From Bacteroidota bacterium (lineage in GTDB: Bacteria; Bacteroidota; Bacteroidia; UBA8524): a DNA stretch of 53,657 nucleotides. The notes beneath the pieces were generated by a model that had not been told where the DNA came from, did no database searches, and worked only from the letters and a program-made list of their open reading frames with translations. The position numbers and the translations under genes are program-made. The DNA is taken from assembly GCA_008933805.1 (NCBI GenBank), contig WBUH01000011.1, positions 117,117 through 170,773 on the forward strand, read 5' to 3'. This document shows positions 4,674-46,127 of this stretch, one piece after another; position 1 is the stretch's first letter, and the number at the start of each line of letters is the position of its first letter.

Positions 4674-4705
4674 TTGGTATTATTTGTTGACACACACAAC
4701 CTTTG
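4674..4705 (+). promoter_or_regulatory. Probable pyrF promoter
   Basis: TTGG (4674-4677), 20 nt, then AACCTTTG (4698-4705), one mismatch from the -7 consensus TAnnTTTG, about 34 nt before the pyrF start. Confidence 0.4.
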
Positions 4706-4738
4706 CACTATAATGCCATCGGGCAGAAATAATCAACC

Positions 4739-5539
4739 GTGAAAAAACAAGAGTTAGTTTCCCAAATAAGAGCCAAAAAAAGCTACCTGTGCGTAGGACT
4801 TGATACGGATTTAAAGAAAATCCCAGCCCACTTGCACAGCCATGCTAACCCCGTGCTTGAGTTCAACCGCCAAATTATTGAAGCTACTGCCCCCTATACC
4901 GTAGCGTATAAAATCAATACCGCTTTTTACGAGTGGATGGGCCCAAAAGGCTGGGAAATAATGGAAGAAACCCTGAAACTGATTCCCCAAGGAATTTTTA
5001 CCATTGCCGATGCTAAACGCGGCGATATTGGCAATACCAGTGCCATGTATGCCCGCACTTTTTTCGACACGATGAATTTCGACTCGGTAACGGTGGCTCC
5101 TTATATGGGGCACGACAGCGTGAAACCGTTTTTAGAGTTTACCGATAAATGGACAATTTTATTAGGGCTAACCTCTAACGAGGGGAGCAATGATTTTCAG
5201 CATTTACAGTCGGCAGAGAAGCCCCTGTACCAACACGTAATGGAAACCGCCCAAACATGGGGCACTCCTGATAACCTGATGTTTGTGGTGGGTGCTACCC
5301 GCACTGCCCAATTACAGCACGTACGCCAAATTGTACCCGACAACTTTTTACTGGTACCCGGTGTAGGCGCACAAGGCGGTAGTTTGGCCGATGTTTCACA
5401 ATACGGCATAAACGGCGATGTTGGGCTATTGGTTAACTCTTCACGGGCAGTGATTTATGCATCAAATGGGGAAGATTTTGCTGAAAAAGCCCGCGAAGAA
5501 GCCCAAAAAGTGCAAAACGAGATGGCTGCTTGGTTATAA
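4739..5539 (+). CDS. pyrF: Orotidine 5'-phosphate decarboxylase
   Basis: Catalyses the last step of de novo UMP synthesis, decarboxylating orotidine 5'-phosphate in the cytosol. The 266-aa protein belongs to the longer PyrF subfamily common in Bacteroidota. Visible are the substrate-binding LCVGLDTDL (residues 17-25), the catalytic Asp-Lys-x-x-Asp signature in TIADAKRGDIGNT (D91, K93, D96), the phosphate loop region VVGAT and the C-terminal LLVPGVGAQGG. The start is GTG at 4739 (GTG AAA AAA CAA); no better in-frame start is near. It is monocistronic: upstream is a broken small gene, downstream a gene on the other strand. A further pyrimidine-salvage gene, upp, lies at 30308. Confidence 0.97.
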   Translation: MKKQELVSQIRAKKSYLCVGLDTDLKKIPAHLHSHANPVLEFNRQIIEATAPYTVAYKINTAFYEWMGPKGWEIMEETLKLIPQGIFTIADAKRGDIGNTSAMYARTFFDTMNFDSVTVAPYMGHDSVKPFLEFTDKWTILLGLTSNEGSNDFQHLQSAEKPLYQHVMETAQTWGTPDNLMFVVGATRTAQLQHVRQIVPDNFLLVPGVGAQGGSLADVSQYGINGDVGLLVNSSRAVIYASNGEDFAEKAREEAQKVQNEMAAWL

Positions 5540-9075: not shown

Positions 9076-9939
9076 TTACCTTCTTGCCTTTAAAGGGTTT
9101 TGGTTGAGCATTTCGGCAAGTAAACCATATAAATAGGGTGCATTTTGCTTAAAGGTTTCAGGGGTTTCAAAAAAATACTCAACCGATACGGCAAAAAACT
9201 CAAGGTAATTGGTAAACGCATATTCACGCAGGGCATCGTGGGCTTGGAGTTCCTGCCTGTAATCTTGGTTATTGTAAAGGCTATACCAACGGTTAAGTCG
9301 GCTTACCATACACACCTCACCGTGTACCCCGTCTTGTTGGGCTTGTAAAAAGTATGCGTGTGCAAACTCATGCAGGCCTAAGTTGTAGTTGTCATTTTCG
9401 TCATCAATACCTTCGATAAAGTTATTCCACGACAATACAATAGCCCCGCCCGGGTTTACCTCTCCTTTGTGGTGTTTGCCTGTTATCTTAGAGGTATACT
9501 CCTGCGGATACACAAATATTTTTTCAAAACCTGACAAAAGATAATCGCTCATGCCAAAGCTAAGCGTTACTGCCTGTGAGGCTATTAATAATTCAATGTC
9601 TTCGGTAATGGCAAATCCCCCGCGTCCGATAAAGTGTTTCTTGCTGATAAATTTCCGCACCCTGCACCCGAATTTTCGTTGCTGATAATGGCTTAGATTC
9701 CTATAAAAAGAAGAATGTCGGAATATTATTGATGCCTTTTCTTCGGGGAGCGGAAACAAGTTAAACTCAAAAAAAGCACTTATAGAAACCCCTGTAATAT
9801 CGTATATGTAATAATTCAAATATTTGAAATAGGTATCAAACAAAATACTAATAAATAGCAGCACGATAGCAATACCGGCTGCGCCCAAAAAAAGAACAGC
9901 AATTATGCGTAGGATGTATTCAGTAATTAAATCTGACAT
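9076..9939 (-). CDS. MtfA-like zinc metallopeptidase, membrane-anchored
   Basis: A 287-aa protein of the MtfA (peptidase M90) family. It has one or two N-terminal membrane segments (about 5-35), then a soluble domain. The zinc site is HEFAH at residues 190-194, and the third ligand region is NYLEFFAVSVEYFFETP (E247 in the conserved E-F-F-A motif). E. coli MtfA is a zinc aminopeptidase that controls the Mlc repressor; whether this protein has a comparable partner is unknown. The start is set at ATG 9939 (MSDLITEY); a longer reading frame would place basic residues before the membrane helix and run into the divergent sigma-factor promoter region. It is divergent from the SigZ-type sigma gene. 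Confidence 0.9.
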   Translation of the reverse strand: MSDLITEYILRIIAVLFLGAAGIAIVLLFISILFDTYFKYLNYYIYDITGVSISAFFEFNLFPLPEEKASIIFRHSSFYRNLSHYQQRKFGCRVRKFISKKHFIGRGGFAITEDIELLIASQAVTLSFGMSDYLLSGFEKIFVYPQEYTSKITGKHHKGEVNPGGAIVLSWNNFIEGIDDENDNYNLGLHEFAHAYFLQAQQDGVHGEVCMVSRLNRWYSLYNNQDYRQELQAHDALREYAFTNYLEFFAVSVEYFFETPETFKQNAPYLYGLLAEMLNQNPLKARR

Positions 9940-9998
9940 GATAATAAGTCGTTCTTCTAAACGCTGGCATAAAACTTGAGCCCGAAAGTAAAATTTTT

Positions 9999-10024
9999 TG
10001 CGTCTTTTTCGCACCCCTTTCATC
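9999..10024 (+). promoter_or_regulatory. Candidate autoregulated ECF promoter of the SigZ-type gene
   Basis: TGCGTCTTTTTCG starts at 9999 and an ATC ends at 10024, a 26-nt span. The same TGCGTCTTTT box and the same spacing to (T/C)ATC occur upstream of both cysteine-rich peptide genes (11349-11374 and 11105-11130, minus strand). No TAnnTTTG box is present here. The ATG follows 17 nt after the motif. Confidence 0.6.
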
Positions 10025-10040
10025 AATACCTAACAGAAGT

Positions 10041-10601
10041 ATGGAAACTAAAAACGAATTGATAGCACAATGGCCGTTGCACAAACAACGGATTGAGGGC
10101 TATGTGTTCTCGTTGGTGAAGGATAACGATGAAACCAACGACATTGTGCAGGAGGTGTTTGTGAAGGCGTTTACAAAAATTGAGAGTTTGAAAAACCCCG
10201 ATAAGCTGTTGCAATGGCTTTTTAGCATAGCCCGCAACGAAACCAACCGGTATTTCAATTCAAAAAACAAGTTTCAGCCGGCCACCGAAGAGACGGAAGA
10301 GGCAATCGAACCCGTGCTACCTGCTAACGGACTTGAAGATTGTATAGGGAGGTTTATTAATGCGCTACCTGAAAAGTATAGCGCAGCGATCCGGTTAGCG
10401 GAGCTTGAAGACTTATCTCAGCTTGAACTGGCAAAAAAGCTGAACATCTCATACTCAGGAGCTAAATCTCGAGTGCAGCGCGGCAAAACCAAGCTAAAAG
10501 AATTGCTGACACAATGCTGCCAAATAGACCACGATAAGTACGGAAATATTTTGGAATGCACACCCAAATCGAGCAGGTATCACGCTCAATACTGCGTGTA
10601 A
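10041..10601 (+). CDS. sigZ: SigZ-type ECF RNA polymerase sigma factor with cysteine-containing C-terminus
   Basis: A 186-aa ECF sigma factor. Sigma2 spans about 10-75 (DETNDIVQEVFVKAF, then LLQWLFSIARNETNRYF) and sigma4 about 100-155 (IGRFINALPEKYSAAIRL, then LAKKLNISYSGAKSRVQRGK). The C-terminal tail has CC-QIDHDKYGNILEC (C159, C160, C173), typical of SigZ proteins, plus C185. I see no anti-sigma gene nearby, so activity may be controlled through this tail, by metal or redox state (inference). The gene shares an upstream motif with two cysteine-rich peptide genes downstream on the other strand, suggesting autoregulation and a small regulon. A strong hairpin ends the gene. Confidence 0.92.
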   Translation: METKNELIAQWPLHKQRIEGYVFSLVKDNDETNDIVQEVFVKAFTKIESLKNPDKLLQWLFSIARNETNRYFNSKNKFQPATEETEEAIEPVLPANGLEDCIGRFINALPEKYSAAIRLAELEDLSQLELAKKLNISYSGAKSRVQRGKTKLKELLTQCCQIDHDKYGNILECTPKSSRYHAQYCV

Positions 10602-10611
10602 GCTTCCGTGC

Positions 10612-10633
10612 GTTCCCCCGTAAACGGGGGAAC
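10612..10633. terminator. Hairpin between convergent sigZ and cysteine-rich gene
   Basis: Arms GTTCCCCC (10612-10619) and GGGGGAAC (10626-10633) with loop GTAAAC; pairing can extend by two more pairs. An outer CCGTGC (10606-10611)/GCACGG (10654-10659) pair could extend the structure. No T tract, so it may work bidirectionally or with Rho. Confidence 0.6.
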
Positions 10634-10670
10634 CTGTTACACCAAATAGTGCAGCACGGAGGGGTAAAAC

Positions 10671-11057
10671 TCAATCAATACAACCCGCGGCAATGCATCT
10701 TTCAATACACTCGCCTTCTTCACAACACACATCATCACAGTAAATGTCACAGCAATCCTCGATGCAGCAATTTTCATAACAGCAGGAAATATCACACTCT
10801 TCGCTGTTACTGCAATTTACACTGTATGCTTCAGCTGTTTTGCCACAGGTAATTTTTACGTTACAGTAATCCGTTTGTGCGGGTTCTGGGCAAAATTTTT
10901 GGAGCATTACCGGCGCACTTGCATTGGATGCAAAGACCTGCATTTCCATGTTTTTAGGAGCATTTTCCTTTACCACGTTTTGTGCCTCCGCAATTACAAA
11001 GCCGGTAAACAAAAACAGGGCGGCCATAAGAAGCCTTTTGAATCTGTTGTTTTTCAT
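10671..11057 (-). CDS. Secreted cysteine-rich protein
   Basis: A 128-aa protein of unknown family. It starts MKNNRFKRLL, followed by a hydrophobic signal peptide that probably ends at AEAQ (about residue 26). The C-terminal half is extremely rich in cysteine: 17 Cys between about residues 56 and 126, arranged as CC and CxxxC groups (ISCCYENCCIEDCCDIYC) and interspersed with Asp/Glu. Such an acidic, cysteine-dense exported domain could bind metal or form a disulfide-stabilised fold. Its promoter region carries the motif shared with sigZ and with the 34-aa peptide gene, and its leader is nearly identical to that of the peptide gene. It is convergent with sigZ. I know no named homologue. Confidence 0.82.
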   Translation of the reverse strand: MKNNRFKRLLMAALFLFTGFVIAEAQNVVKENAPKNMEMQVFASNASAPVMLQKFCPEPAQTDYCNVKITCGKTAEAYSVNCSNSEECDISCCYENCCIEDCCDIYCDDVCCEEGECIERCIAAGCID

Positions 11058-11104
11058 ACGTACTAATGATTTTAGTGGTTAATAAATATGTTTAATACCC
11101 AATA

Positions 11105-11130
11105 GATAAACGTAGCAATGAAAAGACGCA
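11105..11130 (-). promoter_or_regulatory. Candidate SigZ promoter of the secreted cysteine-rich gene
   Basis: On the minus strand TGCGTCTTTT begins at 11130 and TTATC ends at 11105, the same 26-nt span as at the sigZ gene. Downstream TATTGGGT and TTAAACA are shared with the promoter at 11349-11374. It directly follows the terminator of the peptide gene. Confidence 0.6.
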
Positions 11131-11136
11131 GGGGGA

Positions 11137-11173
11137 ATAAAAAAGGGTTGCCCTCTTTTGAGGCAACCCTTTT
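11137..11173 (-). terminator. Intrinsic terminator of the 34-aa peptide gene
   Basis: Perfect 12-bp arms AAAAGGGTTGCC (minus strand, 11173-11162) and GGCAACCCTTTT (11152-11141) with a 9-nt loop, followed by a TTTTTTATT tail. It lies 24 nt past the stop of the small peptide and separates it from the next candidate promoter. Confidence 0.88.
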
Positions 11174-11196
11174 GAAAATGTTATTTTAATGGGGCG

Positions 11197-11301
11197 TTAG
11201 CAGCAACCCGAAGTTCCGCAGCCAATTACGGTAATTGTACCGCAACAAGTGTTATCGTCGCAGCAGTCGTCGTTTTTCAAAATCACATCGTTGTTTTTCA
11301 T
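11197..11301 (-). CDS. 34-residue cysteine-rich peptide
   Basis: A complete small gene: ATG 11301, 34 codons, TAA 11197. The peptide starts MKNNDVILKNDD and continues with CCDDNTCC, then GTITVIGCG and ends TSGCC; 7 of 34 residues are cysteine, in pairs CC, CC, C, CC. It has no signal peptide, so it acts in the cytosol unless it is a leader-less precursor of a modified peptide. No modification enzyme is adjacent. It has its own promoter motif (11349-11374) and a strong terminator (11137-11173), which supports it being a real transcript unit. The MKNN start and the upstream region resemble those of the secreted cysteine-rich gene. Metal binding or redox buffering is a guess. Confidence 0.7.
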   Translation of the reverse strand: MKNNDVILKNDDCCDDNTCCGTITVIGCGTSGCC

Positions 11302-11348
11302 ACCTGAAAATTATTTAAGGGGTTATAAAATTTGTTTAACACCCAATA

Positions 11349-11374
11349 GATAACAAGGGCACGAAAAAGACGCA
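11349..11374 (-). promoter_or_regulatory. Candidate SigZ promoter of the 34-aa peptide gene
   Basis: On the minus strand TGCGTCTTTTTCG begins at 11374 (identical over 13 nt to the sigZ upstream region) and TTATC ends at 11349. The next bases TATTGGGTGTTAAACA are nearly the same as at 11105. The ATG is about 48 nt further on. Confidence 0.6.
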
Positions 11375-11385
11375 AAACCGAAAAA

Positions 11386-11685
11386 CTACCCAATATTTAC
11401 CGTAGGGGCACCGCTGTCAATCCAGCCGCCATGGGTTGTAGGGTCGCCGGCGCGCGCAGCGGGACGACCATTAATCATCACCGTTCCTGAGCCGCCTGCA
11501 ATATTGTTTTCATGGCCTCGGCAAAACAACTTATCGCCCGCACGGGCAGCAGGTTTGCCGCTAATAAAAACATTGGGTGAACACGGCGCTAAAATAGTAC
11601 CACCCCTATGCGGATAATCACCTTTTGAGGTTTTCTCAGTCATAGGGCAAACGTGCAAATCTTCTTCTCGTGCAGCAGGACGCAT
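11386..11685 (-). CDS. PAAR-domain spike-tip protein
   Basis: A 99-aa PAAR protein. Such proteins cap the VgrG spike of type VI secretion or related contractile systems and can carry effectors. The sequence has the repeated PAAR signature: MRPAAREEDLHVCP, then ISGKPAARAGDKLFCRG and INGRPAARAGDPTTHGG. Three cysteines/histidines sit where the tip metal is usually held (inference). It has no toxin extension. It lies 7 nt downstream of the VgrG-like gene, so the two are an operon. No sheath, tube or baseplate genes are in the window. Confidence 0.93.
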   Translation of the reverse strand: MRPAAREEDLHVCPMTEKTSKGDYPHRGGTILAPCSPNVFISGKPAARAGDKLFCRGHENNIAGGSGTVMINGRPAARAGDPTTHGGWIDSGAPTVNIG

Positions 11686-11692
11686 ACTGGTT

Positions 11693-12505
11693 TTAATTAA
11701 GATTTATAATATTTCCTTCTAACCTAAGTTCCCCTTCGGCTTTGATGATCTGCTTGCCTTTAGAAACCTGTTTAATATACTCTGCATTGGTGTTTATACC
11801 GTCGCCCGATGTTATTTCAATACCTCCCACTCCCATTTTTATCTTATTTCCTGCTGTATCTTTCAATACAATGCTATTTGTAGTATCATCAAGTATAATA
11901 CTATTGCCCTTGGGGGTTTGTAAAACAACTTTACTAGTGTCGTCGCTAGGTATTTCAGCGTCAATAAATACTTCAGTGGTCCAAATTGCATCCGCCACAA
12001 TATGGCGTACACGGCTCACTTTACTTTTTTCAAACACTTCCCCAACCCCGCTAAAATCAATCTCATAATCGCACCAAACGTCAGTATTGCCCTGTAGTTT
12101 TATGCTTCCGGTAGTTTTTGTGCCGTTATAGCTTAAGTTAATACCCAACACATTCACCCCTAATTCTGGCTTAAACTCCATACTTGTAGCTTTCATTAGC
12201 TCTTTGTTCCTATCCGTCACACATTTATAAGTGTAATAAAAGCCAAGCGATTCGCTGCTATTTAATTCCACTTCAGTTACCCTGCCCGAAAACAATCCGT
12301 TCAGGTTGCCGTCATACCCAACTTCAATATATACAAGGCTACCTAAACCACACTGTGCGGGTGGCATAAAGCTTGTTTCGCCACTAACGGCAACTGAAAA
12401 TTGAGCGACAAAGTTCTCTCTGTCTAATTGTACAATACCGATAGATATTACTTGGTCAGCAGGGTCGAGCGGGAAAACTCTAAAAGAGACAATTTCGTTT
12501 TGCAT
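11693..12505 (-). CDS. VgrG-like spike protein, short
   Basis: A 270-aa protein that I read as a reduced VgrG/contractile-system spike. The first ~110 residues are beta-rich (GLGSLVYIEVGYDG, LFSGRVTEVELNS), like the gp27-type head of VgrG. The C-terminal ~80 residues show the repetitive beta-prism of spikes: KVVLQTPKGNSIILDD, then TTNSIVLKDTAGNKIKMG and GGIEITSGDGI. Typical VgrG proteins are about 600 aa, so a large middle part is absent. The immediately following PAAR gene supports a spike role. Whether it belongs to a T6SS (subtype iii of Bacteroidota) or an extracellular contractile injection system cannot be decided here. Confidence 0.75.
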   Translation of the reverse strand: MQNEIVSFRVFPLDPADQVISIGIVQLDRENFVAQFSVAVSGETSFMPPAQCGLGSLVYIEVGYDGNLNGLFSGRVTEVELNSSESLGFYYTYKCVTDRNKELMKATSMEFKPELGVNVLGINLSYNGTKTTGSIKLQGNTDVWCDYEIDFSGVGEVFEKSKVSRVRHIVADAIWTTEVFIDAEIPSDDTSKVVLQTPKGNSIILDDTTNSIVLKDTAGNKIKMGVGGIEITSGDGINTNAEYIKQVSKGKQIIKAEGELRLEGNIINLN

Positions 12506-45998: not shown

Positions 45999-46127
45999 GA
46001 CAGTACTCTTTAGACGATAAATACACAGAAAAACGCATTTTTATCGTTTACCTTTTGTTGATGACTTCGTATTAATACCAAAATTGGAACAGATATTGGA
46101 TTAATAGAAAAACAAACTGACACGACT

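Follow-up and report, generated by a model that had tools for sequence, protein, structure and literature searches.

Direct sensing of metals by the cysteine tail of a sigma factor has been demonstrated for three ECF sigma factors, CorE, CorE2 and OrbS (PMC8999054, PMC9023288). CorE and CorE2 of Myxococcus xanthus are activated by Cu, or by Cd and Zn, while OrbS responds in the opposite sense (PMC8999054, PMC9023288). In OrbS of Burkholderia cenocepacia a C-terminal cysteine cluster also serves as an on-board metal sensor (PMC9023288), but this is an iron-starvation sigma factor that Fe(II) switches off, and its tail and regulon are different from those described here. CorE and CorE2 were assigned to ECF44 and are now placed with ECF238, of which they are described as the only members studied by experiment (PMC8103513). 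SigZ has been equated with the same ECF238 (PMC9239204). Among the named ECF sigma factors of B. subtilis, SigZ is one to which no function has been assigned: a 2023 table of the sigma factors of this species leaves it blank beyond 'ECF' (PMC10141391), so that we had no characterised SigZ regulon to compare with. SigZ-like genes themselves are widespread. Our literature search found no link of SigZ to arsenic or to peptides, nor any control of arsenic genes by SigZ instead of an ArsR-type repressor; the 2021 ECF classification, which lay outside that search, may list a predicted promoter.

The DNA analysed here is a stretch of 53,657 nucleotides (the window) from the 4.29-Mb genome of a Bacteroidota bacterium. 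In our opinion, the locus described below is probably a compact regulon whose SigZ-like ECF sigma factor controls its own gene, has no anti-sigma factor and senses a thiophilic metal, most likely As(III). An initial sequence-only reading knew of no description of such a system. This is true of the regulon, which we did not find described, but not of the kind of mechanism, which is already known since ECF238 takes in the metal-sensing CorE and CorE2. The features of the locus are as follows.

9999-10024, forward strand: predicted SigZ-type promoter of sigZ, -35 TGCGTCTTTT at 9999-10008 and -10 CATC at 10021-10024, position-weight-matrix score 24.9
10041-10601, forward strand: sigZ-like gene for an ECF sigma factor of 186 aa, regions 2 and 4 by Pfam Sigma70_r2 and r4_2, NCBIfam SigZ as best match
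10671-11057, reverse strand: gene for a 128-aa protein with 17 cysteines and a signal-peptide-like N-terminus
11105-11130, reverse strand: predicted SigZ-type promoter of the 128-aa gene, TGCGTCTTTT-N12-TATC, score 14.4, the lowest of the three
11141-11173, reverse strand: terminator-like hairpin followed by a T run, 3' of the 34-aa gene, -20 kcal/mol, z -4.6
11197-11301, reverse strand: gene for a 34-aa peptide with 7 cysteines, MKNNDVILKNDDCCDDNTCCGTITVIGCGTSGCC
11349-11374, reverse strand: predicted SigZ-type promoter of the 34-aa gene, TGCGTCTTTT-N12-TATC, score 21.5

We call the sigma factor SigZ-like because it scores below the curated cut-offs of the SigZ models (151.9 bits against 168.65 for TIGR02959, 160.4 against 212 for NF007215), although these models (TIGR02959 / PRK09637) are its best and full-length NCBIfam matches. 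Its features are those of the SigZ-like group: ECF regions 2 and 4 only, a Cys-Cys pair after region 4 (Cys159-Cys160) and further cysteines in the tail (Cys173 and Cys185), in addition to Cys101 in the linker. The Cys-Cys pair and tail cysteines recur in its homologues; of 60 aligned SigZ proteins, 48 have the linker cysteine before region 4, 53 the Cys-Cys pair following that region and 56 one or more further cysteines in the tail. The cysteine-bearing tail noticed at the outset is a conserved character. In the AlphaFold model (mean pLDDT 89) two domains are predicted with confidence and the tail folds into a C-terminal beta-hairpin; Foldseek identifies an ordinary ECF fold. About two dozen other ECF-like matches occur in the genome, all of them much weaker against the SigZ model.

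SigZ resembles CorE and CorE2 in several respects. These too are ECF factors without an anti-sigma factor, with a linker cysteine, a cysteine-rich C-terminus and targets in metal homeostasis (PMC8999054, PMC3107203). As the sequence-only reading had also noted, no anti-sigma factor was found by Pfam or NCBIfam among the flanking proteins tested. However, the linker of CorE carries a CXC motif (PMC8999054), whereas the window protein has a single linker cysteine (EDC101IGRF). The tails of CorE and CorE2 follow C-x4-C-x2-C-x-C or CC-x3-C-x2-C-x-C (PMC9023288), as against CC-x12-C-x11-C in the window; SigZ relatives mostly have CC...CxC or CxxC in place of the compact C-terminal cluster of CorE. 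Further, the -35 element of CorE contains AAC (PMC3107203) while SigZ sites have GCGTC, and the targets of CorE are copper genes, while SigZ sites precede arsenic genes and genes of cysteine-rich peptides. Because its linker, tail spacing and -35 element all differ in this way, we suggest that the window SigZ works like CorE, yet is no CorE.

The three upstream regions share TGCGTCTTTT-N12-YATC, which measures exactly 26 nt from the start of the box to the end of YATC, in just the places that the sequence-only reading had reported (9999-10024 on the forward strand, 11105-11130 and 11349-11374 on the reverse strand). No matches are expected by chance in a window of this composition (100 dinucleotide shuffles). 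The whole genome contains the pattern four times, and only the three sites of the window lie outside coding sequence; the fourth, at C1:132045, spans 27 nt and is within a coding sequence. A looser pattern ending in YRTCTA found only the two peptide sites in this genome. The run shared by the upstream regions of sigZ and of the 34-aa gene, initially given as 13 identical nucleotides, is in fact 16 nt long (TTTTGCGTCTTTTTCG). The housekeeping box TAnnTTTG is absent from all three upstream regions, as originally stated, and scanning the region for sigma-70 promoters returned matches at background level only. In both peptide genes the start codon lies 73 nt from the start of the promoter box. The strong hairpin and T run that end the 34-aa gene make the two genes look like separate units with a promoter each, although a consensus terminator scan did not list this hairpin among its matches. 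A further similarity between the two promoters, also seen in the sequence-only reading, takes the form TTATCTATTGGGT-N-TTAAACA; the leaders concerned lie at 11060-11350 on the reverse strand, and both proteins begin with MKNN, which suggests that a promoter-leader cassette was duplicated. Another match to the weight matrix described below (score 20.2, AAAATGCGTTTTTCTGTGTATTTATCGTCTAAAG) is located at 46037 on the reverse strand, between two genes of the forward strand; no gene is evident downstream of it on its own strand.

A search of related genomes, proposed together with the original claim, found both the motif before SigZ homologues and small cysteine-rich ORFs next to them across phyla, in fixed spacing and orientation. 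The first set consisted of 23 SigZ-positive genomes of the same class, including that of the window. There the box often precedes sigZ, with CGTC replacing CATC, and often occurs again beside sigZ. A profile from a 5-member SigZ alignment was used for a contig scan, and eighty named loci widened the range of phyla. In the relatives the motif reads TTTTGCGTCYTTTTT-N-CGTCTA, with 25-26 nt from the start of the box to the end of CGTC, and is present at 81 of 101 loci of sigZ homologues (a site scoring above 14 with a weight matrix trained on 49 exact sites), a clear site being absent at the other 20. These loci span Bacteroidota, Bacillota, Chloroflexota, Ignavibacteriota, Pseudomonadota and others, and before sigZ the relatives keep the position and spacing of the window promoter. 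All but one of the 49 training sites have a span of 25 or 26 nt. The matrix gives 125 matches at sigZ loci versus 1 in shuffled sequence, and no site above 13 at 16 loci of non-SigZ ECF factors. The window shares the GCGTC -35 element, at sigZ and at its neighbours, while its -10 elements are CATC or TATC and not the CGTC of most relatives; we read YATC as a degenerate form of CGTC at the same position.

The motif also follows SigZ from genome to genome. The strict pattern occurs in 8 of the 23 SigZ-positive genomes, whereas the 372 genomes lacking a strong SigZ match do not contain it at all (Fisher 4e-11). This comparison is circular in part, since it was SigZ loci that had supplied the CGTC form. 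Bacilli are a class outside the definition of the motif core. Here the pattern, which was loosened after the Bacilli sites had been seen, is found near sigZ in 7/7 genomes with a strong match to a cysteine-tailed SigZ and in 0/7 genomes with weaker lookalike ECF matches; it also occurs in 45 of 385 others, a background due to the deliberate looseness of the pattern. The YATC pattern alone had to be rejected as a marker. It is present in about one third of 149 relatives' genomes with variable spacing and is mostly background, and the informative form is CGTC at 25-26 nt. In six loci of Vibrio and Pseudoalteromonas type (L177, L182, L194, L199, L200 and L280) the -35 box TTCGTC[CT]TTTT is a regular lineage variant of TGCGTC.

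What stands behind these sites? At 26 of them it is sigZ itself, and at 20 (including the two of the window) it is a cysteine-rich gene, mostly of 25-70 aa, for instance MKSNDPCCGNDSGCCTCCCCQCSPNQQGGNCQC. These genes usually begin 44-73 nt from the start of the box, those of the window likewise, and the peptides diverge freely in sequence while their cysteine content is kept. Tiny ORFs analogous to the 34-aa gene are thus placed in many relatives. A count made independently of the motif agrees with this: within 1.5 kb of sigZ the density of small cysteine-rich ORFs is 8.5 per 100 kb, about eight times the 1.0 per 100 kb further out, and control loci have 1.7 per 100 kb (binomial 6e-8). Neither the 34-aa peptide nor the 128-aa protein matches any family in Pfam or NCBIfam, those of known metallothioneins included, but these family models serve short cysteine-rich proteins poorly. 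As cysteine-rich putative metal sinks both resemble bacterial metallothioneins. The original idea of an autoregulated sigma factor in control of cysteine-rich products is supported by this comparison, the motif being present both at sigZ and at cysteine-rich genes.

The most frequent named partners of the motif are arsenic genes. Among 58 longer motif-linked proteins 19 match arsenite methyltransferase (ArsM), the largest single enzyme class, and ArsI/CadI and ArsH are represented above curated cut-offs. Other families are an ArsP_1 permease, DUF2703, GST, FAD oxidoreductase, PhzF, PAP2 and aminotransferase, as well as a MATE-like transporter recognised by inspection; the GST, aldo-keto reductase, PhzF, PAP2 and aminotransferase targets are not arsenic-specific. 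The genes known from arsenic metabolism (ArsM, ArsI, ArsH, ArsP) are, in relatives, themselves targets linked to the motif. In Ktedonospora, motif sites far from sigZ precede a cysteine-rich paralogue and a further gene for the same type of methyltransferase. The contexts in plasmid records are supporting but mixed; on a Hymenobacter plasmid sigZ is found near arsC and the ACR3 arsenite pump. In the window no arsenic gene lies beside sigZ, and its genome has no second motif site marking one. The commonest named partners narrow the initial suggestion of a metal or redox response towards arsenic, and they suggest as the signal either trivalent arsenic or methylarsenite, or a mixture of As, Sb and thiophilic metals.

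On a Rhodococcus opacus plasmid (L281) a SigZ-like gene and a 58-aa cysteine-rich ORF, annotated as hypothetical (4679-4855, reverse strand), face each other in convergent orientation, although the locus yielded no motif site.

Taken together, SigZ is probably a self-sensing alarm for arsenic or heavy metals, given its putative cysteine sensor and one conserved promoter before sigZ, cysteine-rich peptides and arsenic genes. The proposed course of events is the following. SigZ holoenzyme would recognise TTTTGCGTCTTTTT as -35 together with a CGTC-like -10 element (CATC/TATC in the window), before sigZ and before the two cysteine-rich genes, one for a cytosolic 34-aa peptide and one for a 128-aa protein that is probably exported. 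SigZ would carry its own sensor, in which the cysteines of linker and tail, together with the Cys-Cys pair that closes region 4, bind a thiophilic metal or metalloid; direct sensing is the simplest model given the lack of an anti-sigma factor and the conserved hinge and tail cysteines. The ligand would most likely be trivalent arsenic, and its binding would switch SigZ on. More SigZ and more thiol-rich products would then be made and the toxicant would be buffered, the output in the window being two putative thiol-rich sinks, one cytosolic and one exported.

The regulon could be just as described and its signal still be another one. If SigZ reported thiol or electrophile (redox) stress, its cysteines would form disulfides or adducts and the peptides would be thiol buffers, and indeed genes of the GST, aldo-keto reductase, FAD oxidoreductase and PhzF types also stand behind the motif. 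We nevertheless regard this as rather unlikely, since ArsM, ArsI/CadI, ArsH and ArsP have arsenic or metal functions, with ArsM as the biggest enzyme class, and since the characterised cysteine-tailed sigma factors (CorE, CorE2 and OrbS) respond to metals. The peptides, too, may be seen differently, namely as precursors of modified peptides (RiPPs or bacteriocins) instead of metal buffers, being short and diverse, with a signal-peptide-like N-terminus in the 128-aa product. Such precursors seem improbable to us: Pfam and NCBIfam reveal no maturase among the flanking genes tested, the cysteine content is kept while the sequences diverge freely, and what accompanies the motif in relatives are genes for arsenic and metals.

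As for the motif itself, ArsR-type repressors commonly control arsenic genes (see also PMC9213503), so it might be no sigma-factor promoter at all but an operator, bound by a co-inherited regulator like ArsR or MerR that represses or activates. Against that, the motif has two parts, is not palindromic and keeps to a fixed span of 25-26 nt; it is oriented towards the gene, its last element is the CGTC usual in ECF -10 elements, and its occurrence follows that of SigZ. We consider an operator very improbable, and the same properties lead us to take the motif for the SigZ promoter and sigZ for autoregulated. That the three sites are a chance occurrence, or a recently duplicated repeat without regulatory meaning, might be argued from the partial duplication of the peptide promoters, but the same motif with the same spacing at sigZ loci in several phyla makes it hardly credible; the shuffles, the unrelated ECF loci and the second class all contradict it.

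Returning to SigZ as an arsenic or heavy-metal alarm, one conserved promoter and a coherent set of targets give this sigma factor a testable role, and suggest a route of arsenic control besides ArsR-type repressors. The motif is also a signpost in DNA to tiny cysteine-rich peptides that are invisible to sequence similarity alone. It is tempting to extend this to SigZ-like factors in many phyla, and we give about even chances to such an extension: they would be one-component arsenic sensors, in which As(III) or methylarsenite bridging the linker cysteine and a C-terminal cysteine switches on one conserved promoter, driving genes of arsenic methylation and detoxification as well as fast-evolving, tiny cysteine-rich arsenic-binding peptides that similarity searches miss.

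Several smaller observations deserve mention. DUF2703, an uncharacterised family, recurs directly behind SigZ-type promoters (L168, L173 and L179 by Pfam, L235 and L236 by sequence resemblance), which suggests an arsenic or thiol-metal role for it. In Ignavibacteriales the motif-linked methyltransferases of L157 (5628-7040) and L160 (3227-4642) are about 471 aa long with an N-terminus like that of arsenite methyltransferases, and that of L157 has a second methyltransferase domain. In the window, the divergent neighbour of sigZ encodes an M90 peptidase-like protein; its ORF (9076-10026, reverse strand) has its listed start at a TTG inside the sigZ promoter, and an ATG at 9939 is a likelier start. 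On the other side, at 11386-12505 (reverse strand), a PAAR-motif protein and an unclassified protein of 270 aa adjoin the peptide genes and resemble the tip module of a contractile injection system.
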